DNA from: Roseovarius litoreus
Lineage (GTDB): Bacteria > Pseudomonadota > Alphaproteobacteria > Rhodobacterales > Rhodobacteraceae
Direction: 5' to 3'
Assembly (NCBI RefSeq): GCF_900142765.1
Contig: NZ_FRCB01000006.1
Coordinates: 1-64,000 of the forward strand
DNA length: 64,000 nucleotides
Part shown: in pieces, positions 990-18,024 of the stretch
Layout of the letters: every line of letters starts with the position of its first letter
Position numbering within the stretch: position 1 is the stretch's first letter
Notes under the pieces: generated by a model
Seen by the model: only the letters and a program-made list of their open reading frames with translations
What the model was told of the DNA's origin: nothing
Databases searched by the model: none
Translations under genes and position numbers: made by a program

Positions 990-3900
990 ATGAAAAACAT
1001 AATTTCCCGCGGCATATCGAAAGCGCTTGGCCGTAGCCGACCACAGCAGCCCGAAGCGCCCAAGGCTGATCTGCCGGGAATGAGCAGTATTCAAATGCGG
1101 CGGGAACAATCCAAAATCTTGTCACGCTGTCTGTCGATTGATCTGGAGGTCGATCCCAAGGAGGCCCGGATATTCGCCTTTGCAGCGGTGCCGGAAGGCG
1201 AGGAAGAGGGGGTTGTTCATCGGAAAGGTGACCCGAAGGCCGCGCTCGAAAAACTCGACCTGTATTGCGCCGGTTTCGCACATGTCATTGGACACAATAT
1301 TCTGCGCCATGACCTGCCGCATCTCATGGCGGTCTCGCCGCGCTTCGCAAAGCTTGCGGATGGACCGATTGACACGCTTTGGCTCAACCCCTTGGCGTTC
1401 CCACGCAATCCATATCATCATCTGGTCAAACACTACCGCGATGGGCGGCTTCAAAGTGGTCACGTCAACGATCCTGAGTTCGACGCGCGTCTTGTGTTCG
1501 AGGTCCTTCGCAACCAGATCGATGCGTTCGTATCGCTGAACATGGCGTCGCCAGAGACGATGATTGCCTATCACTGGCTTTGCTGCCGAGGACCCGCTAG
1601 CAACGGGTTTGATCGGTTGTTCAGCGACGTGCGCGGGGCGCCCATCCCGACTGAAGCTGAAGCGCACGTGGCCATTCGGACGCTGCTAAAACGGGCGGTC
1701 TGCGACGTCCAGCTGGACGCTTTGCTCGAGCGGCTCGCCGACACGGGCCTGGGCTGGCCGATGGCATATGCCCTGGCCTGGGTTTCGGTAGCTGGTGGGG
1801 ATTCTGTCATGCCGCCTTGGGTGCGTGCGCAGTTCCGTGACGCAGCACGGCTCGTCAAAGACCTGAGGGACACGAATTGTCGTGATCCGCACTGTGCCTA
1901 TTGCGCGGAGCACAATGATCCCACGCGTGCACTCGAACGCTGGTTCGGCTTTCCAAGTTTCCGCCCGGAACCGGTCGACGAGCACGGACGCCCGCTTCAG
2001 GAAAAGATCGTGGCCGCGGCCATGGAAGGCGACAACCTGTTGGGCATCCTGCCGACCGGCACGGGCAAATCCATCTGCTATCAGATCCCCGCGCTGTCTC
2101 GGTTTGACAAGACCGGGGCCTTGACCGTCGTCATATCGCCGCTTGTGGCGCTGATGGCGGACCAGGTACAGGGTTTGGTACGTGCCGGAATTTCCTCGGC
2201 GGTTACGATAAACGGGTTATTGTCTTTGCCCGAGCGTCAGGATGCGCTCGACAAGGTGCGGCTTGGGGATGCAGCGATCCTTTTGATTTCCCCCGAACAA
2301 TTACGCAGCATAACAGTTCGGTCCGTTCTGGCACAGCGCGAGGTGGGGCTTTGGGTGCTGGACGAGGCACACTGCGTGTCCAAATGGGGACACGATTTCC
2401 GACCCGACTATCGCTACGTTTCGCGGTTTATCAAGGAAAGCTCAGGCGACGAACCGGCTCCGGTGCTTTGTTTGACCGCAACGGCAAAGCCGGACGTTGT
2501 GCAGGACATACGCAGTCATTTCAAAGAGCGGTTGGGGGCCGAACTGGTGTTGATCGACGGTGGCGCATCGCGGTCGAACCTGAGCTTCCAAGTGCTGCCA
2601 ACGCAGCGCGCAACCAAGATGGCCGATATACTCGACACGATAGAGGCCCGGCTTCCGCGCGAGGGCGTGTCGGGGGCTGTTGTTTATTGTGCGACGCGAA
2701 ACGCCACCGAGCGCGTGGCGGAGTTCTTAAAGCAACAAGGCATCGCCGCGGAGCGGTATCATGCGGGACTTAGCGCCGATGACAAGCGAGAGATCCAGGA
2801 GGACTTCCGTATCGGCAATCTGCGCGTGATCGCGGCCACCAATGCCTTTGGGATGGGGGTCGACAAGCCGGACATTCGCCTCGTGGTTCACGCTGACGTG
2901 CCTGGGTCGCTGGAAAACTACCTTCAAGAGGCAGGGCGCGCCGGACGGGATCGCGAGTCTGCAAACTGCGTTCTTCTGTTCAATACCGAAGACGTTGATC
3001 GTCAGTTCAGCCTCAGTGCGCGGTCTCGACTCGCGCGGCATGAAATCGGCGCGATCCTGAAGGCGCTTCGGCGCCTTGATACTCGAACCGGAAAAGGCGG
3101 TGAAATAGTCGCCACTCCCGGTGAGATTGTTCACGAAGAGAAAGAGCGGGATTTCCAGAGGGACAGCAATACCGACGATACGCGGGTGAAAACTGCCGTC
3201 GCCTGGCTGGAAGAATCGCACCTTCTGAACCGCGAAGAAAACCGGGTGCAGGTGTTTCCCGCCTCGCTCCGGGTAAGGAGCATGCAGGAGGTCGTTGACA
3301 TCCTTGCGACCGCCGAGATCACTGAGCGGCGGCGCGGGGATCTGGCCACCATCGTGCAGCATATCATCAACGCGCCGCAAGAAGAGGGCATCACTACGGA
3401 CGAGCTTTGTGGGGTGAGTGGGCTGACGGCGTCTGGCGTGCGCAAGGCTTTGGCGGATCTTGAGGCTCTGGGGATTGCAAAGGATGATACAAACATCACC
3501 ATTTTCGTGCATGTGCGTGTCGAGAACGCCTCGCCGAAGCGGTTCGAAGCGGCATCCCGGTTGGAAGCCGACCTGATTGCGATCCTTAGAGAGCAAGCGC
3601 CGGACACGGACATCAACGAGGCTTGGCCCTGCCACCTGGCCTCGGTGGCGCAGGCCCTGCGGGAGCAGGGACACGCCTCCGTACGGCCCGATATCGTCGA
3701 GGGGTTGCTCCGTGGGATTGCGCAGGATGGCCGCGACATGGATGGCGGCAAAGGCAATATCGGCCTGCGCAAGGTGTCCAAAGGCAGCCTCATGGTGCGG
3801 ATGCAAAGATCATGGGCTGTAATCGAGCAGACCGCTCAGCTTCGCAGGCAGGCCGCAGAGCGGTTGGTTTCATACTTGATCGACAAGGTTCAGGCCGGCC

Positions 3901-6206
3901 TGCGTGGCAAGGATGTTCCTGTCGAGACCACGCTTGGCGACCTTCTTGCGGCGGTCAACAGCGATGCGCTGTTAAGGGCATCCGTCAATGATCCGTCGAA
4001 ACTGATGGACCGCGCGCTTCTTTGGCTGCACGAACAGCAGGTGGTCACTCTGGGCAAGGGATTGTCCGTGTTCCGCTCCGCCATGACGTTGCACATCAAT
4101 CCGAAAGGCGGCGGCTTTACCACCCAGCATTTTGCGCCGCTCGAAGATCACTATAGCGAACAGACCGTCCAGACCCACGTGATGGCGGCTTATGCGACCA
4201 AAGGCATCGACGATATCGATCAGGCCCAACGGCTCGCGCATGACTATTTCGCAATGGAGCAGTCCGATTTCATGAAAGCTTGGATGCCGGGGAAAATTTC
4301 GGAGTTCAGACGGCAGGCAACGCCCCAGTCCTATGCCGAGATCGTCGACAATCTGGGGAACTCGACACAAGAGCAGATCGTGCGTGACGACCGGGAACAG
4401 ACCAATGTTCTAGTGCTCGCGGGGCCCGGATCAGGCAAGACTCGCGTGCTGGTCCATCGTGTTGCCTATCTGGTCAGGATCAAGCGTGAAGATCCAAACG
4501 GTATATTGGTGCTCGCCTACAATCGTCACGCGGCCGCCGAGATCCGGGAACGCCTGCGGCTATTGATTGGTGAAGATGCACGCTTCGTTACGGTCTTGAC
4601 CATCCATGCCTTAGCCATGCGCTTGGTTGGTGCGAGTTTCGCCGGACGGGAAGCGGCCGATGACCCTGATTTTGAGACGCTTCTGACCGATGCGGCGCGT
4701 CTTTTGCGTGGCGACGGGCTGGACAAAGTCGAGGCCGAAGCCTTGCGAGAGACCTTGATCCAGGGATTTCGCTGGATTCTCGTGGACGAATATCAGGACG
4801 TGGGGCCCGAGGAATACGCCTTGATTGCTGCGGTGGCCGGCCGCAGCATCGATGATCCCGATCAACGGATCAGCCTGTTCGCTGTCGGCGATGACGATCA
4901 GAATATCTATGCATTTGCTGGCGCATCGGTGCGCCACATTCGGCAATTCGAACAGGATTATTCAGCCAAGCCGGTCTTTCTGACCGACAATTACCGCTCG
5001 TCGAAAAATATCATCAGCGCAGCGAACGCCGTGATCGAAGGATCTCGGGAACGTATGAAAACAGCGCATGGGATTACAGTAGACCAAGCGCGGCAAAAGG
5101 AGCCGGCTGGGGGTATTATGGAAGACCTCGACCCGGTTGCACAGGGACGGGTCCAAATCCTTGGCTGCCCGGCCGGAAATGACGCGCAGGCCCTTGCGGC
5201 GGTCAACGAGATGATCCGCCTGTCAAAACTGATCCCGGATTGGAGCTGGAAGAGGGCGGCAATCATTTCGCGTGATTGGCGCAAGCTTCTGCCGGTCCGA
5301 GACTTTGCCGAGGCGCATGGAATTCCCGTCGAAATGGCGAACGAGAGCTTGCCTAGTGTGTGGCGCACCCGTGAGATGCAAAGGTTTATCGGTGGCCTGC
5401 GCGAGAGGCACGGGGCCATGGTCAGCTTGGGCGACCTGACCGAAAACCTGAACGCGATACCGGCAAGCCGTTGGACTGACCGGATCGGCGAGGGGCTTGG
5501 TCAACTCGCGCGTGAAGTTGATGGCAAATCGCTCCCGACCCCTGACGTGATTGAATGGTTCGCTGAATGGTCGAAGGATTCATGGGGCGAACAGCGTGGC
5601 CTAAAATTGTTGACAGCACACCGCTCTAAGGGGCTCGAATTCGACGATGTGGTGATCATGGATGGCGGTTGGGAACGGCCCTCGCGAAACGAAGATCAGG
5701 ACGCGCCGAGACGATTGTTCTATGTGGCCATGACACGTGCACGGCGCAATTTGATCGTCATGAGCAACGACAATCACGAATACCTTCCCACCGAGTCGCC
5801 TTCCGTGGTCAAGCGGCACGTGGTGTCCGACTTGGCGACAGTCCCCGGCCCCCGCCGGTTCTTTCAATCTCCAGAAATGAAGATGGTCGACCTGTCATTC
5901 GCAGGGCGCCAGGGTGATCGGCACATTGTTCATGACGCGATTGCCCAAGCACAGGTCGGCGCGCCAGTCAGGCTCTCCAGAGTCGGGGATCGCTGGCAGA
6001 TCGAGGATGTTCGAGGACGGGCCCTCGGGCGGATGTCAAAAGCATTTGCGCCACCGATTGGCACGAAGTTTGTCACCGGCGAGATCGCGGCCATCATTCA
6101 TTGGCGCAAAGAAGATGCCGATGAGCGTTTTCACTACCTGCTGAAACGCGCCAATTGGGAAGTCGTTGTGCCTGAACTGGTCTTCGAAGAGATCAAGCGG
6201 GCTTAA
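990..6206 (+). CDS. Giant fusion protein: DEDD exonuclease-like domain + RecQ helicase + UvrD/Rep-type helicase
   Basis: Predicted 1738-residue protein acting on nucleic acid. Residues about 48-172 resemble a DEDD exonuclease: D51/E53 in SIDLEV, GHNILRHDLPHL (101-112), and NDPEFDARL ending the fold. Where DEDDh enzymes carry His before the last Asp (D165), this protein has N160. A Cys cluster follows (C297, C302, C305). Residues 330-660 are a RecQ helicase: Walker A GILPTGTGKS (352-361), DEAH (458-461), motif VI QEAGRAGRDR (646-655). About 660-1130 is a region I do not recognise, perhaps with winged-helix parts. Residues 1144-1600 are a superfamily 1 helicase: AGPGSGKT (1144-1151), DEYQD (1266-1270), GDDDQNIYAF, and VAMTRAR (1579-1585). 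All key helicase residues look intact. Two complete helicase engines in one chain is unusual. The ATG has only a weak ribosome site; M31 is an alternative start. Neighbouring HNH and IS relics suggest a transferred, possibly defence-related locus; that role is inference. Confidence 0.88.
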   Translation: MKNIISRGISKALGRSRPQQPEAPKADLPGMSSIQMRREQSKILSRCLSIDLEVDPKEARIFAFAAVPEGEEEGVVHRKGDPKAALEKLDLYCAGFAHVIGHNILRHDLPHLMAVSPRFAKLADGPIDTLWLNPLAFPRNPYHHLVKHYRDGRLQSGHVNDPEFDARLVFEVLRNQIDAFVSLNMASPETMIAYHWLCCRGPASNGFDRLFSDVRGAPIPTEAEAHVAIRTLLKRAVCDVQLDALLERLADTGLGWPMAYALAWVSVAGGDSVMPPWVRAQFRDAARLVKDLRDTNCRDPHCAYCAEHNDPTRALERWFGFPSFRPEPVDEHGRPLQEKIVAAAMEGDNLLGILPTGTGKSICYQIPALSRFDKTGALTVVISPLVALMADQVQGLVRAGISSAVTINGLLSLPERQDALDKVRLGDAAILLISPEQLRSITVRSVLAQREVGLWVLDEAHCVSKWGHDFRPDYRYVSRFIKESSGDEPAPVLCLTATAKPDVVQDIRSHFKERLGAELVLIDGGASRSNLSFQVLPTQRATKMADILDTIEARLPREGVSGAVVYCATRNATERVAEFLKQQGIAAERYHAGLSADDKREIQEDFRIGNLRVIAATNAFGMGVDKPDIRLVVHADVPGSLENYLQEAGRAGRDRESANCVLLFNTEDVDRQFSLSARSRLARHEIGAILKALRRLDTRTGKGGEIVATPGEIVHEEKERDFQRDSNTDDTRVKTAVAWLEESHLLNREENRVQVFPASLRVRSMQEVVDILATAEITERRRGDLATIVQHIINAPQEEGITTDELCGVSGLTASGVRKALADLEALGIAKDDTNITIFVHVRVENASPKRFEAASRLEADLIAILREQAPDTDINEAWPCHLASVAQALREQGHASVRPDIVEGLLRGIAQDGRDMDGGKGNIGLRKVSKGSLMVRMQRSWAVIEQTAQLRRQAAERLVSYLIDKVQAGLRGKDVPVETTLGDLLAAVNSDALLRASVNDPSKLMDRALLWLHEQQVVTLGKGLSVFRSAMTLHINPKGGGFTTQHFAPLEDHYSEQTVQTHVMAAYATKGIDDIDQAQRLAHDYFAMEQSDFMKAWMPGKISEFRRQATPQSYAEIVDNLGNSTQEQIVRDDREQTNVLVLAGPGSGKTRVLVHRVAYLVRIKREDPNGILVLAYNRHAAAEIRERLRLLIGEDARFVTVLTIHALAMRLVGASFAGREAADDPDFETLLTDAARLLRGDGLDKVEAEALRETLIQGFRWILVDEYQDVGPEEYALIAAVAGRSIDDPDQRISLFAVGDDDQNIYAFAGASVRHIRQFEQDYSAKPVFLTDNYRSSKNIISAANAVIEGSRERMKTAHGITVDQARQKEPAGGIMEDLDPVAQGRVQILGCPAGNDAQALAAVNEMIRLSKLIPDWSWKRAAIISRDWRKLLPVRDFAEAHGIPVEMANESLPSVWRTREMQRFIGGLRERHGAMVSLGDLTENLNAIPASRWTDRIGEGLGQLAREVDGKSLPTPDVIEWFAEWSKDSWGEQRGLKLLTAHRSKGLEFDDVVIMDGGWERPSRNEDQDAPRRLFYVAMTRARRNLIVMSNDNHEYLPTESPSVVKRHVVSDLATVPGPRRFFQSPEMKMVDLSFAGRQGDRHIVHDAIAQAQVGAPVRLSRVGDRWQIEDVRGRALGRMSKAFAPPIGTKFVTGEIAAIIHWRKEDADERFHYLLKRANWEVVVPELVFEEIKRA

Positions 6207-6389: not shown

Positions 6390-7481
6390 TCATCCGGCGA
6401 TCATTGCTTCGGCAAGGGCCATCCAAAGCGGGATTGACAGGATCGCGATTGGAGTTCCGAGTGCTGTCGAGGTCCCGATATAGGAAGAGGAATTTGCCTC
6501 GGGCAATGCGGCTCTCAGCGTCGGTGGTCCGGAAACATCCGAGCTCGAAGATGCCATCACGGCGAGAAGCACAACGCCACCTGCTGAAAATCCTGTGAAG
6601 TGATTGGCGGCCATACCGATCGCGAACCCGATCGCGCCATGCACGAATGGTGCAAGAATGCCGTAAAGAATATACACATGGGCTACTTTGCGAAGATCCG
6701 CCAGCCGCGCCCAAGCTTCCATTCCCATCACAAGCATCAGCAGTGACAGAAGGCCGTGAAACAGTGGCTCATAGAAGCTGGCGTAGACCGTTTCCGGCCT
6801 TGCAAACAGACCAAGCGCCAAGCCAAGCAAAAGCGCCGATATTGCCGGGCTCTTGAGTGTATCAACCAGGATGTCCTTAACAAACGTTCCGTTGAAGCCA
6901 CTTCCATTGCCGCCCATGGTCATCGTGGCCGTACCGGCCTCATCCGGAGTGGACACAATGCTACGCGCTGCACTCATTCTTGCCAGTGTTATGGCAGTTA
7001 AAAGAGCGGCCACGTCCATGAAGGGATACAAGGCGCCGATAAAGCCTTCATAGGCCACGCCTTCGGCGTCCAACATGCCCATTGCCGCTGCAAGAGTGGA
7101 GGCAGACACGGCTCCGAAGAGACCGGCTGTTGCCATGCCGTCCATTGGAGACACACCTTGCTGCCGCAAGAGAATTGCTCGTCCGATCAAGACGATAACG
7201 ATCCCGGCAATGGTCGCTCCGAGTGCCGGAACCGCCAGTTCCATTAAATTTGCGCCACGCACCGCGATGCCTGCACCCAAGCCGACCTTCATCAACAAAA
7301 GGAGAACGACCAGTTTGTAAACGGGTTCGGGAACCTCGAGGCGGCTGCCAAGGGCTGCCAAAAGCATACCGCCGATCAGAAAGGCAAGTGTTGGCTTCTG
7401 AAACTGAGACAGGATAGTGGTCAAGATTTCGACGATGATTTCCATGAGGGCTAAGCCATTTCTGATTGCGTTGGCCCTCAT
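6390..7481 (-). CDS. SbtA-type sodium-dependent bicarbonate transporter family permease
   Basis: About 363 residues, almost entirely hydrophobic, with roughly ten membrane helices. It shows the two inverted halves of the SbtA (DUF897) family: KPTLAFLIGGMLLAALGSRL then PVYKLVVLLLLMKVGLGAGI, and the glycine/serine-rich stretch GLFGAVSASTLAAAM that marks the ion-binding region. Family members import bicarbonate with sodium into the cytoplasm. The substrate in this organism is not proven. Start choice is uncertain: ATG at 7481, a TTG three codons earlier, or an ATG at 7445 that begins MEIIVEI; none has a strong ribosome site. It is a single-gene unit with a palindrome 47 bases upstream. Confidence 0.78.
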   Translation of the reverse strand: MRANAIRNGLALMEIIVEILTTILSQFQKPTLAFLIGGMLLAALGSRLEVPEPVYKLVVLLLLMKVGLGAGIAVRGANLMELAVPALGATIAGIVIVLIGRAILLRQQGVSPMDGMATAGLFGAVSASTLAAAMGMLDAEGVAYEGFIGALYPFMDVAALLTAITLARMSAARSIVSTPDEAGTATMTMGGNGSGFNGTFVKDILVDTLKSPAISALLLGLALGLFARPETVYASFYEPLFHGLLSLLMLVMGMEAWARLADLRKVAHVYILYGILAPFVHGAIGFAIGMAANHFTGFSAGGVVLLAVMASSSSDVSGPPTLRAALPEANSSSYIGTSTALGTPIAILSIPLWMALAEAMIAG

Positions 7482-7527
7482 TTGGCGCAAAGCGAGTATA
7501 AATAAAAATACATCTTTCGGCCATTTT

Positions 7528-8050: not shown

Positions 8051-8078
8051 TTCGGATTTGAAGAAGAGAAAAGCACCT

Positions 8079-9041
8079 ATGGCAAAGGAGTCCAACGTTA
8101 CCCCCAGAACGGGCGATCAGGCCTTTACCCGAACGTCGGACTTTGGGACCGTGGCTGAAGCCAGCTATGCAGGTGCTCTTAGCTTCATGCGGCGGCGTTA
8201 CACCCGCGATCTGAGCGGTGCCGATGTCGCCATTATGGGTGTGCCCTTTGATCTGGCGGTGTCCAGCCGTTCGGGCGCGCGCCTTGGGCCACGGGCTGTC
8301 AGGGCCGCCTCGAGCCATATTGCCTGGTCTGCCCCATGGCCTTGGGAAAAGGACCCGTTCGAGCAACTTGCCGTGGTGGATTACGGGGATTGCCAGTTCG
8401 ATTACGGAAATCCGGCGAATATCCCCAATGAGATCGCCGATCAGGCGCGCGCGGTTCTGGCAACGGATACGGCGCTTCTGTCGATCGGTGGCGATCATTT
8501 CGTCACTTACCCGCTGCTGAAAGCCCATGCCGAGAAACACGGGCCTCTGAGCCTTGTTCAATTCGATGCGCATACCGACACATGGGCCGATGAGGCGGGA
8601 CGGATCGATCATGGCACGATGCTGTGGCACGCAGTCCGCGACGGGCTGGTTGATCCTTCGCGCTCGGTTCAGGTCGGCATCCGGACGCACAATCCCGAGC
8701 CACTTGGCTTCAACATCATAGACGCGATCGAAATGCACCGGACCGGGCCGCAGGCGGTTGCCGAAAAGATCAAGCGCATCGTCGGGGACCAGAAGACCTA
8801 TCTGACCTTTGATATCGACGCGCTGGAACCCGCCTCGGCCCCAGGTACCGGCACGCCGGTGATCGGTGGTCTAAGCCCTTACCAGGCGCAGGAAACGCTT
8901 AGGAATATGGTTGGCGTGAACCTTGTGGGCATGGACGTCGTCGAAGTCGCTCCGGCTTATGATGTGGCCGATATCACGGCATTGGCGGCCGCGACGATCG
9001 CCAATGACATGCTGTGCCTCTACGCCGCTGCGCATGGCTGA
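8079..9041 (+). CDS. speB: Agmatinase-type ureohydrolase
   Basis: A 320-residue arginase-superfamily protein. The manganese-binding motifs are all present: SIGGDHFVTYPLL, FDAHTDTW, and FDIDALEPASAPGTGTP, with the GTGTP ending that fits agmatinases and guanidinobutyrases. These enzymes hydrolyse a guanidino compound (agmatine or similar) to urea and an amine in the cytoplasm. I chose the ATG at 8079, preceded by AAGAAGAGA; a TTG seven codons earlier is open but less likely. It stands alone between the IS relic and torT, so the substrate cannot be inferred from context. Confidence 0.85.
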   Translation: MAKESNVTPRTGDQAFTRTSDFGTVAEASYAGALSFMRRRYTRDLSGADVAIMGVPFDLAVSSRSGARLGPRAVRAASSHIAWSAPWPWEKDPFEQLAVVDYGDCQFDYGNPANIPNEIADQARAVLATDTALLSIGGDHFVTYPLLKAHAEKHGPLSLVQFDAHTDTWADEAGRIDHGTMLWHAVRDGLVDPSRSVQVGIRTHNPEPLGFNIIDAIEMHRTGPQAVAEKIKRIVGDQKTYLTFDIDALEPASAPGTGTPVIGGLSPYQAQETLRNMVGVNLVGMDVVEVAPAYDVADITALAAATIANDMLCLYAAAHG

Positions 9042-9074: not shown

Positions 9075-10121
9075 TCAGGGCGAGAATTCGAAAACCGGTA
9101 TGAAACTGGCTGGCGCAAGGGTTTCGGACAACTGCTCCTCGGTGATCTGGCCTTCCACGACAGGGAAGATGACCGGCCCAGCCTGACGATGGATAAGGCT
9201 GCCTTCGATGGCGCGCACGGCGAATTCCACGGCAAGCCTGCCTTGCAGAACCGGGAAATCCGTCGGCGCGGCAAGGATCTTCTGGCGGTATATTCCGCGA
9301 TAGACCGCATGGGTCATGTAGTCCGAGACGATCTGCACCTGCCCTTCAAGGCCCCGCGTGCGCAGCAAAGACACCGCAGCTTCGGCGGTGGGCGCGGACC
9401 CGACGACATAGTCGAGATCGGGAACTTCCTGCAAGGCCTGCTCGACCAGCAAAACCTGATCCTTGCGGCCTGTATCTCCGTATTTGGTCACCGCGATCTC
9501 GGCTGAACTCGCGGCGATCGCGGCGTGGAAGCCGCGTTCGACGAATTGCACCCAGCCCGCCCCTTTCGGACCGGGAAACCAGGCCACTTTCACTGCCGGG
9601 CTTCCCTTGGGGTGGCGTTGCGCAATGACACGGCCAGCGGCGGCGCCCATTTCCACCCAGGATACGCCCACCTTGGCGGTGATGCCGGGATCGGCGATAT
9701 CATTGACCGCTGCGATCACGGGGATATCCCGGGCGATCTGGAGGATCGTATCGGTCAACGCGTCATAGGCGACGGTTCCGAGGATAAGCGCATCCACACC
9801 TTCGGCCACGCAGTCGATGATCTGCTGTCGTTGACGGTCAAGATTGGGATAGCCGCCCGCCTCGACCAGCTTGAAGGACACACCCAGCCTGCGCGCCTCT
9901 TCGACCATCCCGTGATTGACGCTGAGCCAATAGGCATCCTTGAGATGCGGGTAGGCGACACAAAGCGACCAGTCCTGCTGCGCGGTGTCGAGTGGCGTGT
10001 AGGTCACGATATCGCTTGGCCCCTCGTAGTCGAAAGGCGCCTGAGGAACCTGCAACTGCCAAGGAGAGGATGCGGCCGCCAACGGGGCCACGACGAGAAA
10101 AAGAACACAGAACCAGCGCAT
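9075..10121 (-). CDS. torT: TorT-like periplasmic TMAO-binding protein
   Basis: A 348-residue periplasmic-binding protein of the LacI/RbsB fold with a signal peptide (MRWFCVLFLVVAPLAAASS). The sequence WSLCVAYPHLKDAYWLSVNYGM-like stretch (here VNHGM), ARRLGVSFKLVEAGGYPNL and the late QIVSDYMTHAVYRGI match TorT. TorT binds trimethylamine N-oxide and presents it to the TorS sensor. It is divergent from torS with a short shared upstream region. A far longer open frame continues upstream antisense to torS, but the signal peptide fixes the start at the ATG at 10121. Confidence 0.85.
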   Translation of the reverse strand: MRWFCVLFLVVAPLAAASSPWQLQVPQAPFDYEGPSDIVTYTPLDTAQQDWSLCVAYPHLKDAYWLSVNHGMVEEARRLGVSFKLVEAGGYPNLDRQRQQIIDCVAEGVDALILGTVAYDALTDTILQIARDIPVIAAVNDIADPGITAKVGVSWVEMGAAAGRVIAQRHPKGSPAVKVAWFPGPKGAGWVQFVERGFHAAIAASSAEIAVTKYGDTGRKDQVLLVEQALQEVPDLDYVVGSAPTAEAAVSLLRTRGLEGQVQIVSDYMTHAVYRGIYRQKILAAPTDFPVLQGRLAVEFAVRAIEGSLIHRQAGPVIFPVVEGQITEEQLSETLAPASFIPVFEFSP

Positions 10122-10214
10122 GGGTGATATGGTTGCAGCAATGTGGGTCCGCAGCAACTGTTTCAAGCGGCAAGCCCGCACTTTTGCGGATGGGACGGCA
10201 CTCGGGGCGAACAC

Positions 10215-13142
10215 GTGTTGAGACAAGCGGGATTGCGGGGAAAGCTGCTGTTCGCCTTCGTGTTGATCGCGGGGCTTCCGACCTTGGCGGGTTTTCTCGG
10301 GCTGATCGAGCTGCGCGACCTTGTCAGAAAACAGTCCGACGTGATCCGTCAGACGATCCCGGCAATTACCGATGTCCGTGGCATTGCCGAGGAAAGCACG
10401 AGTATCGTGGCGCTTGTTCCGCGGCTGGCCGATGTGGACAACCAGCCCGATCGCGAGGCGCTGTCGGGTGATCTGCGCAAGCAGGTCGAAGCCCTTGCCA
10501 CACGTCTTGAACGGCTTGAGGGCAACAGCGGTGCCCGTATCGTCACCTTGCGCGAAACCATCGCCCAGGTGGAAACTGCACTTGCGATGCTGGACGATAT
10601 GGTCGAGCAGCGGATTGCGGAACGCGACGTGTTTCATGGCCGCGTTGCGCTGAATCTGGACGCGGCCAACATGCTTCTCGATATGGCCGATACGCTTGTC
10701 GCCAACGCCGAAATGGCGACGACGGCTGTCATCTCCAGTCTCTATGGCGAGACCAATGCCGGGCTGGAAGGCGCAGGCACGGTTGCCGCGCTGGACAAGC
10801 TTCTGGAAGTCGATCTGTTCCAGCTTGGCCTGATGTTCGAACTGCGCTCGCGGGCGGCCGAGGTGGGGTTGTTGATCAACCGCATCGAAGAGACCGCGAC
10901 CGTCGAGGAGCTGGAAGCGGTGGAAGCGGCGTTCCTGCCCGAGCTTGCCGTGGTGTCGCGCCGGATCGCCGCCATCCGTGATCCGGGGCGTCTGCAGCAG
11001 GCGGAGCGCCTTCTGGCGGAATTGCAGTCGGTCACCGAGGATGACGTAACCCTGTTCGATCTGCAGCGCAGCATCCTGTTGAGTGGACTTGGGATCGACG
11101 CCCTGAAAAAAGAGCTTCAGGATGCCGCCATTCGGCTTGGCGAAGAGGCCTCGGCCGTGGCGGACCAGTTGCAGCAGGTCGCTGTCACCTCCGGCGAGAT
11201 CGTTGCACAGGACATGCGGCAGGCGCAGATCCGCAACAGCGCCGCCGCCATTGTGGGGCTTGTTCTTGCAATGGCCGTTCTGTGGTTTTTCGTGCGTGGC
11301 CACATCACCCGTCGGCTTGACCGACTGCATGGGGAGATGACGGCCCTTGCACGGGGCAATCTCGACCGCAAGATCCGTCCGCGCGGCAATGACGAGATCG
11401 CCCGAATGGAAGAAGCGACCGAGGTGTTCCGCCAGCAAGCCATCGCCAAACGCGATCTTGAAAGGCAGCGCGACCGCAACGAACGCGAATTGCTGGAGCA
11501 TCGCAACAATCTGCAGAAAATGGTGTCCGAGCAGACCGAGCGTTTGCGTCTTGAAGTGGCCGCCCATGACGAAGCCCGCCGCGAGGCCGAGGCCGCCGAC
11601 AGAGCCAAGTCGGAATTCCTGGCGATGATGAGCCATGAAATCCGCACGCCGATGAACGGCATGTTGGGCTTGCTGCACAGCCTGTCCGAGGATCGGCTGG
11701 ATCCCGAACAGCGCCATAGACTGGGCGCGGCCTATGCATCGGGGCAGAACCTGCTGCAGATTCTGAATGACATCCTCGATTATTCCAAGATCGAGCATGG
11801 CGGCATTCAGCCGGTGAATGCCACTTTTTCGCTGCATGATCTGGTCACCGACGTGATGGCGCTTATCCGTCCTAGTGCCGATTCAAAGGGTCTGCACTTG
11901 CTTCTGGATATGCCGGATACGCTTGTGGATGTCGTCTGGGGCGATGTCGCCAAGCTGCGGCAGATCCTGTTCAACCTGTTGTCCAACGCGCTCAAATTCA
12001 CCGAGGAAGGAGAAGTGATCCTGCGGCTGCGTGCCGGCTGGGCACAAGGCGATGCGCACCGGGTGATCTTCGAGATCAGCGATACGGGGCGCGGTGTCGC
12101 GCAGGCGGCCAAGGCCCGGATATTCGAGGCCTTCGAACAGGAGGATGGCGCCACGAGCGGCAAGTTTGGCGGCACGGGGCTTGGCCTTGCCATCAGCAAG
12201 CGGTTTGCCGATGCCATCGGTGCGACCCTGACCCTTGAAAGCACCAAGGGGGTGGGGTCGGTCTTTACGCTGGCGGTTGATCTGGAATCCGGCAATCCAT
12301 CGGATCTTGAGGACATGGCCCGCCCCGAAACAATCGACCGTGCCGAGGTCGCACTGGATATTCTGGTGGTCGAGGATAACGAGATCAACCAGATGGTTGC
12401 CCGCGGCTATCTGGAGCGGATGGGGCATACATGCCATTGCCTGTCCGATGCCGAGACGGCGCTCGCGCTTTTGCAGCATCGTCGCTTCGATGTGATCCTG
12501 ATGGATGTGAACCTGCCGGGAGTGAACGGGGTCGAGGCGACACGCCAGATCCGCGCCCATGCGAATGTGGCTGTTTCGGCAACGCCGATCATCGGCATTT
12601 CGGCGCATGTGCAGGAGGAGCAGATCGAAAGCCATTTGCAGGCGGGCATGAACGGCTTTGTGGCCAAACCCGTGGCGCCAGAGCGTCTGGCCCGCGCCTT
12701 GGACAGTGTCAGGCAGGGCCAGCAGGGCGCGGTTTTCCTGTCGTCGCGTATGCCGGTCTCCAAGGCGATGTCGCGCATGGTCTCGCTCGAGACGGTGCTG
12801 CGGCGCAATATCGAGGATTTCGGCGCCGACTCCGCGCGCCGGATCGCCGGGCTTTTCATCGAACAGATCGCGATCGAGCAGGCGGCGCTGGAAGCCGCGC
12901 TCGAGGCCGAAGACTGGGACGAGTTGAAAAAGATCGCGCACCGTTTGAAAGGTGCGATCGGCAACTACGATCAGCATGACGTGGTTCAGGTTCTGGCCCA
13001 GCTCGAGGCCAATGCCAGTGCCGCGCAACATGACCGCGCGCGCATCCTTGTTCAGCGCTTGTCGGCATTGATGCCGCAACTGGGAGACGCCATGGCCGCC
13101 GCATTACGGCAGAACGAAGCCGTCAGGTCACATGCGATGTGA
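10215..13142 (+). CDS. torS: TorS-like hybrid sensor histidine kinase
   Basis: About 975 residues from the GTG at 10215 (GGGGCGA upstream; another GTG in frame at 10143 is possible). Order: N-terminal membrane helix (about 8-28); a long helical periplasmic sensor domain; second helix near 345-365 ([15 protein letters not shown]); HAMP; coiled coil; HisKA with H474 in [11 protein letters not shown]; ATPase motifs [15 protein letters not shown] and [10 protein letters not shown]; receiver with D764 in ILMDVNLPG; and an HPt domain with H909 in [10 protein letters not shown]. This is the TorS phosphorelay layout, responding to TorT-bound TMAO and phosphorylating TorR. Its last 20 bases overlap the end of torR, which is convergent. 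Confidence 0.87.
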
Positions 13143-13815
13143 AAGCATATCCCTCGCCATGCACGGTAGTTATGATCGCGGGGCTTGCCGGGTCCTGCTC
13201 CAGTTTGGTGCGCAGGCGGCGGATCAGAACGTCGACGGTGCGGGGATTGGTGCCATATTGCCGATGTGTGACCCGCGCCATCAGAGCATCACGGCTTGCC
13301 ACCTCGCCGGGGCGTGTCACGAAATGCTGCAGAACCTCGAATTCGGCCCGCGTCAGGGTCACGGCCGCCCCGTCTTCGTTTTCCAGTCGCCGGGCGCGCA
13401 GATCGAAGACATAGCCGGAGAACCGATAAACCTGCCGCGATCCGTGCGCCGACCGGCTGGTGCGGTATAGCAGGTTCTTGATCCGTGCCAAAAGCTCGCG
13501 ACGGTTGAAGGGTTTGCAAACATAATCGTCCGCACCCATCTCCAGCCCGACGATGCGATCGACGTCATCATCGCGCCCGGTGACCAGAATGATACCGATA
13601 TCGGATTTCGCCCGTTGTTCGCGCGTGATCTTCAAGCCGTCCTTGCCCGGCAGATTGATGTCCACAAGAAGCAGATCCACGGGCTGATCCCGAAGGATCC
13701 GCTCGGCGATGTCGGCGCTTGCCGCCTCGGACACGTCATATCCCTGTGCTTCGAGATAACTTGTCAGGGTGGCGCGCGTGACAGGCTCGTCTTCTATGAT
13801 GAGGATGTGTGACAT
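13123..13815 (-). CDS. torR: TorR-like response regulator (OmpR family)
   Basis: 230 residues: receiver domain 1-120 with acidic pocket E8/D9, phospho-acceptor D52 ([13 protein letters not shown]) and K101 ([10 protein letters not shown]), followed by a winged-helix DNA-binding domain ([20 protein letters not shown], then [15 protein letters not shown]). Placement beside torS and torT makes it the output of the TMAO relay. It is divergent from the transporter operon starting at 13997, and two CTGTTCAC repeats lie in the 181-base gap, so it likely controls that operon and perhaps itself. Confidence 0.87.
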
Positions 13816-13873
13816 CTGCCTCGGAGGTATTGGACGACCACTCCATTAACAAATTTATACATCTTAGTATAGG

Positions 13874-13903
13874 CTGTTCACCCCATGCGCCTTACCTGTT
13901 CAC
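13874..13903 (+). promoter_or_regulatory. Candidate TorR binding sites (two direct tor-box-like repeats)
   Basis: CTGTTCAC occurs at 13874-13881 and again at 13896-13903, in the same orientation and 22 bases apart (two helical turns). The Escherichia coli tor box, bound by TorR, is a direct-repeat decamer of the form CTGTTCATAT. The site lies between the torR start and the tmoX start, about 95 bases before tmoX. Match and spacing are seen; binding is inferred. Confidence 0.65.
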
Positions 13904-13969
13904 AAACGATGCCTAGGATTTCCCCAGCACGGGCCTGGTTTGCCAATCATGTCCGCGCTCGAAGAATAA

Positions 13970-14947
<978 letters not shown>

Positions 14948-15025: not shown

Positions 15026-16057
15026 ATGACCGACACCGATATGGTGATGTCCTGTCGTAAAGTCTGGAAACTGTTCGGGCCGCGGCCGGGCGCCTATCTT
15101 GCCGGTCTCGATCCTGCCGCCAGCTTCGACCAAATCCGGGCCGATGGATATGTGCCCGCCGTCAGGGATGTGTCTCTGGACATTTCCAAGGGCGAAATGC
15201 TGGTCATCATGGGCCTTTCCGGATCGGGCAAGTCGACGCTTGTGCGCTGCCTGTCGCGCCTGATCGAGATCACCGGGGGCGAGGTCCGGGTCGAGGGGCA
15301 GGTGATCGGCGATCTGTCCGAGAAAGAACTGATCGACCTGCGCCGCAACAAGATGGGTATGGTCTTTCAGAGCTTCGGGCTTCTGCCGCACCGCACGGTG
15401 CTCGAGAACGTCGCCTTTCCGCTTGAGATGCGAGGGCAGGATATCCACACCCGCCGTGCCCGCGCCCTCGAGGTGATCGAGCTCGTGGGGTTGGGCGGCC
15501 GCGAGGATTACTTCCCGCGCGAATTGTCCGGTGGCCAACAACAGCGCGTCGGCATCGCCCGCAGCCTCGCGATCGAGCCGGATATCTGGTTTCTGGACGA
15601 GCCATTCTCGGCGCTCGATCCCCTGATCCGCCGCGAGATGCAGGATGAATTCCTGCGCCTGCAGGGGCTGTTGGGCAAGACCATCGTGTTCATTACCCAT
15701 GATTTCGACGAGGCGCTGCGCCTTGCCGACCGGATCGCGATCATGAAGGACGGTGCTGTCGAACAATGCGACCGGCCCGACCGGATCGTGATGGAACCCG
15801 CCACAGAGTATGTCGCGAAGTTCATCGAGGATATCGAGAAAGCCCGCGTGGTTCATGCCAGCGCGATGATGCAACCCGTCAATGGCCATGACCTGACCGG
15901 CGCGGCCGTGGATGGCGGCAAGACCATATCCCAGCTGGCGCGGCTGCTGGTCAATGATGATCGTCTGATCCTGCCGGTGGCCGGACCGGATGGCGCGATC
16001 ATCGGGGGGTTGGACCGGCAAAAGGCGCTTGATGTCCTGCTGGGGGCCAAGGAATGA
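15026..16057 (+). CDS. tmoW: TMAO/betaine ABC transporter, ATP-binding protein (TmoW-like)
   Basis: 343 residues of the ProV/OpuAA type. Walker A GLSGSGKS (63-70), signature LSGGQQQRVGIARSL, Walker B WFLDEPFSALDP and the H-loop FITHDFDEAL are all intact. The C-terminal part (about 285-343, ending GLDRQKALDVLLGAKE) looks like a single CBS-type domain, as in osmolyte importers. The N-terminus has the CRKVWKLFGP stretch typical of this subfamily. Ribosome site AAGGAGA precedes the ATG. Its stop overlaps the permease start (ATGA). Confidence 0.85.
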   Translation: MTDTDMVMSCRKVWKLFGPRPGAYLAGLDPAASFDQIRADGYVPAVRDVSLDISKGEMLVIMGLSGSGKSTLVRCLSRLIEITGGEVRVEGQVIGDLSEKELIDLRRNKMGMVFQSFGLLPHRTVLENVAFPLEMRGQDIHTRRARALEVIELVGLGGREDYFPRELSGGQQQRVGIARSLAIEPDIWFLDEPFSALDPLIRREMQDEFLRLQGLLGKTIVFITHDFDEALRLADRIAIMKDGAVEQCDRPDRIVMEPATEYVAKFIEDIEKARVVHASAMMQPVNGHDLTGAAVDGGKTISQLARLLVNDDRLILPVAGPDGAIIGGLDRQKALDVLLGAKE

Positions 16058-18024
16058 CGGCACTGTCGACAAACGCGCATCATGTCGATGCCCGTCATGA
16101 CGTGCGGATGCGTGTGGCCCAGATCCTGTTGATGGCGGCACTGGTCCTGACGGTGGGCAAGGGCGTTCTGCCCGAGGGTCTTGTGCGTCCACCCGCATGG
16201 ATGGTCTGGCCGTTTGCGGATTGGATCAACGCCTTTTTCGACTTTCTGCGCGACGATCTCGGCCTGATCCACGTCACCCGCGCCTTCGCCGATGGGGTGG
16301 AGTGGCTGCTGGATATCACGGCCAACCTGCTTTACGGCAAGAACCGCTGGCCGAGACTTGGCCCGATCCCCTGGAGCGTGATCGCCATTACCGCCGCCAT
16401 GATCGGCTATTACCTGAGCGGCTGGCGGCTGGCGATGTTCGCCGGGCTGACCTTTGTCTGGGTGGCGGTGATGGGCCAGTGGGAATGGACGATGGAGACC
16501 CTGTCGGTCATCATCGTGGCAGCCCCCTTGTCGATCCTGCTCGGGCTGGTCTTTGGCACGATGGCATGGCGCAGCGCAGGGTTTCGGATGGTGCTCAATC
16601 CCCTGTTGAATGTCGCGCAGTCCCTGCCGCATTTCGCCTATATGATCCCGGTTGTGGTGTTCATCGGGGTCGGGCCGAAGGCCGGCGCGATCGTCACGAT
16701 CATCTTTTCTGTCCCGCCGATGATCCGCATGACCCTGCTGGGTCTTCAAAAAGTCCCGCCCGAAGTGGTCGAGGCGGGGCATATGGCCGGCGCCACGCGC
16801 TGGCAATTGCTGCGCCATGTGCGCCTGCCGACCGCGCGGACCGAAATTCTGGTGGGCGTCAATCAGGTCATCATGCAGTGTCTTGCAATGGTCGTTCTGG
16901 CAAGCTTCATCGGGATGCCGGGACTGGGGCAGAAATTGCTGCAACTTCTGCAGGCGCTCAAGATCGGCCGCTCGATCGAGATCGGCATCACGATCGTGCT
17001 GCTGGCGGTCATGCTGGACCGGTGTTCCAAAGCCTGGGCCACGCGCCAGCCGGAGCATATCGAAAAGGGCACCTCATGGCTGATCCGTCACCGTCTGTTG
17101 TTGGTCTGGGCCGTTCTGGTCGGTGTTTTCTGGGGGCTGTCTTTGATGTTCCCGGTCCTCCATGAAATCGGGCGACGCGACGCGTTCAGTCTGGCGGATC
17201 CTCTGGATGCGATGATGGACTGGGTCATCATGGTTCTGGACCCGGTGACCCAGTGGCTCCGGTGGTTCCTGATCGTCTGGGTGCTGATCCCGTTGCGCGA
17301 TGCGATGCTGTGGTTGCCGTTCTCGGCGGTGCTGGTGTTCCTGATGGCGGTGGGCTGGGCCGTTGGCGGACGGCGCTCGGCGCTGATCTGTCTGGCGTAT
17401 TTCGGCCTGATCGCCATGACGGGATGGTGGGACCGCGCCATGATTACCGTCTACACGGTCACTTTCGCGGTGTTTCTGGCCACGCTGATCGGGTTCCCGC
17501 TTGGCATCTGGGGAAGCCGCAGCGAAAGCCGCGCGCGCGCCGTTCTGCTGATCTGCGACACGCTGCAGACCTTTCCAAGCTTCATCTACCTCATCCCGGT
17601 CATCATGCTGTTCGGTGTCAATGACGTGGCTGTGGTGGGCGCGGTGGTGCTGTTCGCGGCAGTCCCGCTGATCCGCTACACGATCGAGGGGCTGCGCAAT
17701 GTGCCCGTGGCGCAAATCGAGGCGGCGAACATGTCGGGTGCCTCGCGGCGGCAGACCTTGTGGTCGGTGCGCCTGCCGCTGGCCTTGCCGACGATCATGG
17801 TGGGGGTGAACCAGTCGGTGATGTTCTCGCTTTTCATGGTCATTATCGCGGCCTTCATCGGCACGCAGGATCTTGGGCAGGAAATGCAGCGCGCCTTGTC
17901 GTCCAGCGATGTGGGCAAGGGGCTGGTTCTGGGGCTGGCCGTGGCGTTCATGGGGCTGATGGTGGATCATCTGATTACTGTCTGGGCCAATCGCCGCCGC
18001 AAGGCCCTTGGGCTCGAGACGTAA
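16054..18024 (+). CDS. tmoV: TMAO/betaine ABC transporter, fused double permease (TmoV-like)
   Basis: 656 residues made of two ProW-type permease halves joined head to tail. Each has its own cytoplasmic coupling loop: EAGHMAGATRWQLLRHVRLP in the first half and EAANMSGASRRQTLWSVRLP in the second, each followed by a VGVNQ.. helix (ILVGVNQVIMQCLAMV; IMVGVNQSVMFSLFMV). Usual ProW proteins are about half this length and act as homodimers, so one chain here supplies the whole membrane channel. A tandem permease of this size fits TmoV. Translation is coupled to tmoW. Confidence 0.8.
   Translation: MTALSTNAHHVDARHDVRMRVAQILLMAALVLTVGKGVLPEGLVRPPAWMVWPFADWINAFFDFLRDDLGLIHVTRAFADGVEWLLDITANLLYGKNRWPRLGPIPWSVIAITAAMIGYYLSGWRLAMFAGLTFVWVAVMGQWEWTMETLSVIIVAAPLSILLGLVFGTMAWRSAGFRMVLNPLLNVAQSLPHFAYMIPVVVFIGVGPKAGAIVTIIFSVPPMIRMTLLGLQKVPPEVVEAGHMAGATRWQLLRHVRLPTARTEILVGVNQVIMQCLAMVVLASFIGMPGLGQKLLQLLQALKIGRSIEIGITIVLLAVMLDRCSKAWATRQPEHIEKGTSWLIRHRLLLVWAVLVGVFWGLSLMFPVLHEIGRRDAFSLADPLDAMMDWVIMVLDPVTQWLRWFLIVWVLIPLRDAMLWLPFSAVLVFLMAVGWAVGGRRSALICLAYFGLIAMTGWWDRAMITVYTVTFAVFLATLIGFPLGIWGSRSESRARAVLLICDTLQTFPSFIYLIPVIMLFGVNDVAVVGAVVLFAAVPLIRYTIEGLRNVPVAQIEAANMSGASRRQTLWSVRLPLALPTIMVGVNQSVMFSLFMVIIAAFIGTQDLGQEMQRALSSSDVGKGLVLGLAVAFMGLMVDHLITVWANRRRKALGLET

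Follow-up and report, generated by a model that had tools for sequence, protein, structure and literature searches.

The gap between torR and tmoX in Roseovarius litoreus contains four tor-box positions at the offsets of the E. coli torC promoter, followed by a -10 element at the same place as in E. coli. These sites lie within a window of 64,000 nucleotides, the whole stretch that was analysed, in which torT, torS and torR adjoin tmoXVW, the genes of a TMAO importer (Table 1). The array is conserved among relatives and accompanies the linkage of torR to tmoX. We consider it very likely that TorTSR senses TMAO in this organism and that TorR activates tmoXVW for TMAO catabolism, probably along with control of its own gene. 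The switch itself is of a known kind; what differs is the lineage and the target, and the layout is unusually exact. TorR becomes a specific candidate regulator of tmoXVW in lineages that carry torTSR alongside, and the promoter layout has stayed in register between distant classes despite the changed target.

Table 1. Genes and promoter features of the torTSR-tmoXVW locus; box and promoter elements are predicted sites.
Feature	Position	Strand	Details
torT, periplasmic TMAO-sensing partner	9075..10112	-	NF008185 392.6 vs 200; TIGR02955 325.6 vs 310
torS frame, hybrid sensor kinase	10143..13142	+	TIGR02956 643.9 vs 676.5 bits, below cut-off
torR, OmpR-family response regulator	13123..13815	-	NCBIfam NF008034, 280 bits against a cut-off of 275, passed narrowly
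tor-box position 1	13843..13852	+	CCATTAACAA, 5/10 to CTGTTCATAT; degenerate here; TTAA in 34/34 distinct arrays
tor-box position 2	13853..13862	+	ATTTATACAT, 5/10; abuts box 1 as in E. coli
tor box 3 (first repeat)	13874..13883	+	CTGTTCACCC, 7/10
-35-like CTTACC	13891..13896	+	17 bp before the -10; absent in E. coli; putative role
tor box 4 (second repeat)	13896..13905	+	CTGTTCACAA, 8/10; most conserved box
-10 element TAGGAT	13914..13919	+	TAnnnT here in 33/34 distinct arrays; E. coli TAAGAT, same place
tmoX, TMAO-binding protein of ABC importer	13997..14947	+	231/305 aligned residues identical to PDB 4XZ6
tmoV, importer ATPase	15026..16057	+	
tmoW, importer permease	16054..18024	+	

Genes of the locus and the four-box array

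TorS, searched as 10230-13142, contains HisKA, HATPase, receiver and Hpt domains as well as the TorS sensor domain of Pfam, which scores 104.8 vs 27, and it aligns to the solved structure of the TorS sensor region. The genes torS and torR converge, overlapping by 20 bases at their 3′ ends (13123-13142). TmoX keeps all seven TMAO-pocket residues (7/7) of R. pomeroyi TmoX; its best solved relative, 4XZ6, is identified as that protein in PMC8918994, from which the seven residues were also taken. The three-gene order is likewise that of R. pomeroyi TmoXVW, whereas the R. pomeroyi locus examined (strain SZCCDBG043) differs in having no torTSR match and no array. On the far side of torT, an agmatinase-family gene (8058-9041) adjoins it, a neighbour seen, among the loci compared, only in the nearest relative besides, with flanks that mostly extend about 1 kb past torT. 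Further out are a membrane-protein-like frame with no NCBIfam match (6390-7490) and a 1738-aa frame (990-6206) that resembles a RecQ-type helicase fused to a UvrD-type helicase, by motifs judged by eye.

The initial annotation of this DNA had described two same-strand CTGTTCAC repeats 22 bases apart, read as tor boxes suited to TorR control of tmoX. Both repeats are present on the + strand, at 13874-13881 and 13896-13903, with their starts 22 bp apart, within the gap of 181 bp that separates the torR start (13815, - strand) from the tmoX start (13997, + strand). They prove to be only half of the arrangement. In the torR-torC gap of E. coli K-12, CTGTTCATAT, CTGTTCATAT, CCGTTCATCC and CTGTTCATAT stand at offsets 0, 10, 31 and 53 (the E. 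coli tor box sequences are also given in PMC9239176). When this array was slid along the locus, its best placement in the window fell on 13843, 13853, 13874 and 13896, at offsets 0/+10/+31/+53, so the repeats correspond to the third and fourth boxes of an array of four that has the E. coli torC geometry and a fixed -10 behind it. The window array scores 25/40 (5, 5, 7 and 8 for the four boxes, the first two being weak), a value reached in none of 5000 base-composition shuffles of the gap, and the runner-up anywhere in the 64 kb scores 21.

Single copies of the CTGTTCAC 8-mer are ordinary, with three in the window against 1.07 expected and at least three in 12 of 100 shuffles. The pair is another matter: CTGTTCAC-N10..18-CTGTTCAC occurs once in the whole genome (3,928,183 bases; 3.93 Mb), as does TGTTCAC-N0..30-TGTTCAC, and at spacing 22 the pair scores 15/20 to E. 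coli CTGTTCATAT, which was matched in 10/5000 base-composition shuffles of the gap. A chance origin of the repeats, or a site for some unrelated regulator, would accommodate the frequency of lone copies, which are no rarer than chance allows, but is scarcely credible in view of the genome-wide uniqueness of the pair, the E. coli geometry, and the conservation and torR linkage described below.

Conservation of the array and its linkage to torR

We compared 110 tmoX loci, the window's own copy included: 80 were the best 80 of 430 relatives, and 30 came from a second genome search, which matched 41 of 60 genomes at E ≤0.001, often through distant paralogues. The window turned up twice more, and these extra copies were left out; the two sets of loci, which overlap, were kept unmerged. 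In 38 of the 110 loci, torR is divergent from tmoX across a gap of less than 700 bp; in the other 72 it is not. The 38 linked gaps reduce to 34 distinct arrays and, by shared 8-mers, to 24 representatives. Among the loci, two (L104 and L105) have tandem tmoX-like genes before tmoV, the first copy being partial in L105. A torTSR-tmoXVW cluster also occurs on one contig that bears the title Enemella evansiae (Actinomycetota). The TorR of this cluster falls among Roseobacteraceae rows in the tree, and the contig's label or assembly is probably wrong.

At every linked locus (38/38), the best E. coli-type four-box place of the whole locus, with both strands considered, lies in the torR-tmoX gap and is directed towards tmoX. 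Of 8581 offset sets applied to the 24 representative gaps, that of E. coli (0,10,31,53) ranks first, with a mean of 27.8/40 against 19.8 (sd 1.05) for all sets and 18.0 (sd 0.26) for 200 shuffles; the gap shuffles of the offset and array tests preserve base composition only. A strict core, defined as box, 22 bp, box, 10 nt and TAnnnT with at least 13/20, was found in 35 of the 38 torR-linked loci and in none of the 72 unlinked loci (655,046 bases). The reading as tor boxes thus gains support from the spacing in relatives and from the torR linkage, as predicted sites. Absence of the repeats from relatives with the same gene order had been named as what would refute it; of the 34 distinct arrays, 33 carry TTCA in both boxes. 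That conserved TTCA is the part of the repeat that stands; the literal CTGTTCAC pair occurs in 1/34 arrays, that of the window.

Across the 34 distinct arrays, mean conservation is 0.90, 0.84, 0.80 and 0.92 for boxes 1-4 and 0.68 for the six -10 positions, with 0.57 to 0.70 elsewhere between boxes and elements and 0.43 downstream. At the -10, T71 and A72 never vary and T76 is present in 33 arrays, giving TAnnnT 10 nt after the TTCAY of box 4. The offset profile and the gapless array alignments owe part of their regularity to the way the stretches were excised, at these very offsets; the offset rank test, the profile search, and the strict-core and whole-locus placement tests are free of this effect. 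A profile of the 34 alphaproteobacterial arrays, with E. coli left out, recovers the E. coli tor boxes at 14.5 bits (E 0.0046), where E-values are rough and the alignment, on its way from box 3 to box 4, inserts 2 nt and deletes 2 nt in compensation. The same profile matches the window (and its own-genome copy), L134 (24.2 bits), L133 (15.0 bits, boxes 1-3 only) and L137 (12.9 bits), with no other match at E ≤10 over 18 sources (217,271 bases, including seven unlinked tmoX loci). By the E. coli consensus, L133, L134 and L137 have no four-box geometry and are weak profile matches only.

The TorR family cut-off is not diagnostic, since six paralogue-like regulators (L197-L202) pass it without the core and five tmo-linked TorRs of the genus fail it (250.7-268.3 bits). 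In the recognition helix and wing, E. coli and tmo-linked TorRs have RRLR (KRLR in four) and HGEGY, the TorR of the window being of the RRLR kind, while the TorR-like regulators L197-L213 have NRLR in 16/17 and HGVGY or HGAGY. This signature is not exclusive: L138 combines RRLR with HGMGY, and L185-L191 and L194 combine RRMR with HGEGY. The tree, built from 63 of the 84 collected TorR rows and containing several long-branched outgroup rows, places 25 tmo-linked rows in one group (100/98) and 8 E. coli-type rows in another (100/98). Both join L133, L134 and L137 in a 36-row group with moderate support (87/82, not starred by the program).

Promoter layout and the expected action of TorR

By analogy mostly with E. 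coli, periplasmic TMAO would be detected by TorT together with TorS, and TorS would phosphorylate TorR. TorR would then bind the boxes, occupying the strong box 4 together with box 3 first; positioned just upstream of the sigma-70 -10, it would recruit RNA polymerase to a predicted tmoXVW start near 13926. With tmoXVW transcribed, the cell would import TMAO and break it down with TMAO demethylase. TorR on boxes 1-3 would probably cover the torR promoter as well and keep torR expression down. We infer activation because E. coli TorR activates from the same geometry: it is called an activator in PMC9239176, and the E. coli torC -10 is placed at TTGCT(nnnn)AAGAT in PMC10845959. Autoregulation is suggested by a plausible torR promoter on the - strand, which boxes 1-3 overlap.

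Two promoter features admit other readings of the same array. CTGAC is complete at the place of 13891-13895, beside box 4, in 25 of the 34 distinct arrays, and its bases C, T, G, A and C, at array offsets 48-52, recur in 33, 33, 26, 34 and 33 of 34, exactly 17 bp before the -10. This -35-like element places box 4 between -35 and -10, an arrangement that would also fit repression, with TorR on the same boxes blocking RNA polymerase until TMAO releases it. The strong conservation and exact spacing of the element favour such a mechanism, but E. coli TorR activates torC with the same box 4 to -10 geometry (PMC9239176 and PMC10845959) and the window's own CTTACC is a poor -35; we regard repression as unlikely.

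The second feature is a promoter-like match at 13940-13967, downstream of the array. It was the one match in a promoter scan, agrees with the sigma-70 consensus at 9/12 positions, and is better than the array's own promoter. As the main promoter it was set aside, since none of the 33 other distinct gaps has such a match after the array; it could be a TorR-independent promoter in the window. It would also suit a model in which the array serves torR autoregulation alone and tmoX is expressed from an independent, unregulated promoter. Boxes 1 and 2 appear to overlap a plausible - strand torR -10, which tor-box position 2 may contain, and E. coli torR is said to be autoregulated through its high-affinity site. 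Such a restricted role nevertheless seems very improbable, given boxes directed towards tmoX at all linked loci, no core at the unlinked tmoX loci, a best-conserved box 4 that lies with the -10 on the tmoX side, and a downstream promoter-like match confined to 1/34 arrays.

Targets, further sites and other lineages

The target of the array is tmoXVW and not a TMAO reductase such as that of torCAD. A TMA monooxygenase (Tmm, 819 bits, cut-off 675) and a TMAO demethylase (Tdm, 1236.5, cut-off 1100) are encoded side by side on contig C4 of the genome. No BisC-family reductase in the genome exceeds the model cut-off, the best match reaching 156 bits against 1017.55, a strict threshold, given that what is probably a genuine reductase, encoded in the L192 genome, scores 1010.5. 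Among five torR-carrying relatives, four have no BisC-family match at E 1e-100 and the fifth (G014) has five, at 812 to 944 bits, so that a TorR system occurs without a strong BisC-family match in five of six genomes, the present one among them. The array precedes genes of TMAO import rather than TMAO respiration, and the same sensor thus appears connected to a different job. Induction of tmoX by TMAO is reported for a SAR11 strain. Among the literature matches listed, from a search that took in few subscription journals, none names a regulator of tmoXVW and none describes a torTSR-tmoXVW arrangement with tor boxes.

The genome-wide search proposed in the initial annotation for further pairs yielded no other convincing TorR site in this genome. 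With up to three mismatches, the 22-bp pair has 471 sites and its reversed pattern 157, a difference that probably reflects composition. Two one-mismatch pair sites among the matches listed were judged noise, one lying inside open frames (L114) and the other overlapping an open-frame start (L115). The 44-nt core, allowing at most one mismatch, has three sites in the genome: the known one, which is exact, and two with one mismatch each (C7:11168 and C11:82814). The full-array profile gives one match at E ≤1 under strict filters, by which 75 of 1547 candidates were scored and weak sites may be missed.

Across 12 genomes of the genus, the exact 44-nt core occurs once, always in this gap, in five of the six with a TorR match of at least 250 bits beside tmoX; the sixth has it with one mismatch. 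The other six genomes, where TorR matches reach 198 bits at most, have no exact copy. Additional one-mismatch sites appear singly in G014, G035 and G008, the last being a genome without a TorR match above 198 bits. Compared by sequence across genomes, none of the extra sites was recognised as common to two. With the pattern reversed as a control, a single match was obtained over all 12.

The tmm-tdm cluster has no array (best 21/40), a best pair of 14/20 and no core, which gives no support to the idea that TorR controls the catabolic genes. In G014, whose genome also has the torR-tmoX array, a second TorR-like regulator (L236, 235 bits) is transcribed divergently from a BisC-family reductase gene. 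The gap between them has tor boxes neither at a spacing of 22 bp nor in the arrangement of four, and this regulator therefore seems to use other sites. Related regulators within one cell may read different sites.

The likeness to E. coli torR-torCAD extends beyond the four decamers and the TAnnnT 10 nt after the TTCAY of box 4, as torR is divergent from the target in both and torT and torS are linked. The target differs, a TMAO reductase there and a TMAO importer here, and boxes 1 and 2 are TTAACA-type here, with a -35-like CTGAC added in most relatives. The gene order is torS, torT, torR, torC in E. coli and torT, torS, torR, tmoX here, and the convergent 3′ overlap is 28 bases between torT and torR in E. 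coli as against 20 between torS and torR here. As judged from the sequences, torR and its promoter gap stayed together while the sensor genes swapped places and the target differs.

Beyond the class, we examined 12 loci of the same phylum with TorR matches above 375 bits (L185-L196), taken as gammaproteobacterial from their likeness to E. coli TorR. Nine of the 12 (L185-L191, L194 and L196) show no convincing four-box array in the stretch examined. Of these, L194 and L196 have the last two boxes and the -10 at the same place only, and L187 does so weakly; the remaining six have no core there, although L188, L189 and L191 among them reach 24-25/40 near torR, equal to the window, without the TTC of box 4 or the core. 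The strict core is likewise found in 0/17 of the L197-L213 loci, whose TorR-like regulators score 263 to 293 bits.

The four-box offsets recur in the other three, with 37/40 in L195 before torC, 30/40 in L192 and 32/40 in L193, and with -10 elements TAAAAT, TATAGT and TATAGT, respectively. The operon behind the array differs by lineage, being a reductase in E. coli, a putative porin in L192 and L193, and an importer here. With slightly more for it than against it, we propose that the four-box array and its -10 form a portable promoter unit, which has kept step with TorR in different classes of Pseudomonadota although the operon it drives was exchanged, and that in this lineage the TMAO-respiration sensor has lost respiration and become a single-target switch for eating TMAO under air. 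The porin case represents a third kind of target: in L193, a putative TorF-family porin (550-1308) lies directly behind the array, next to torR and torT, the gene start in L192 is nearly identical, and both promoters keep the same offsets with TATAGT at the same place.
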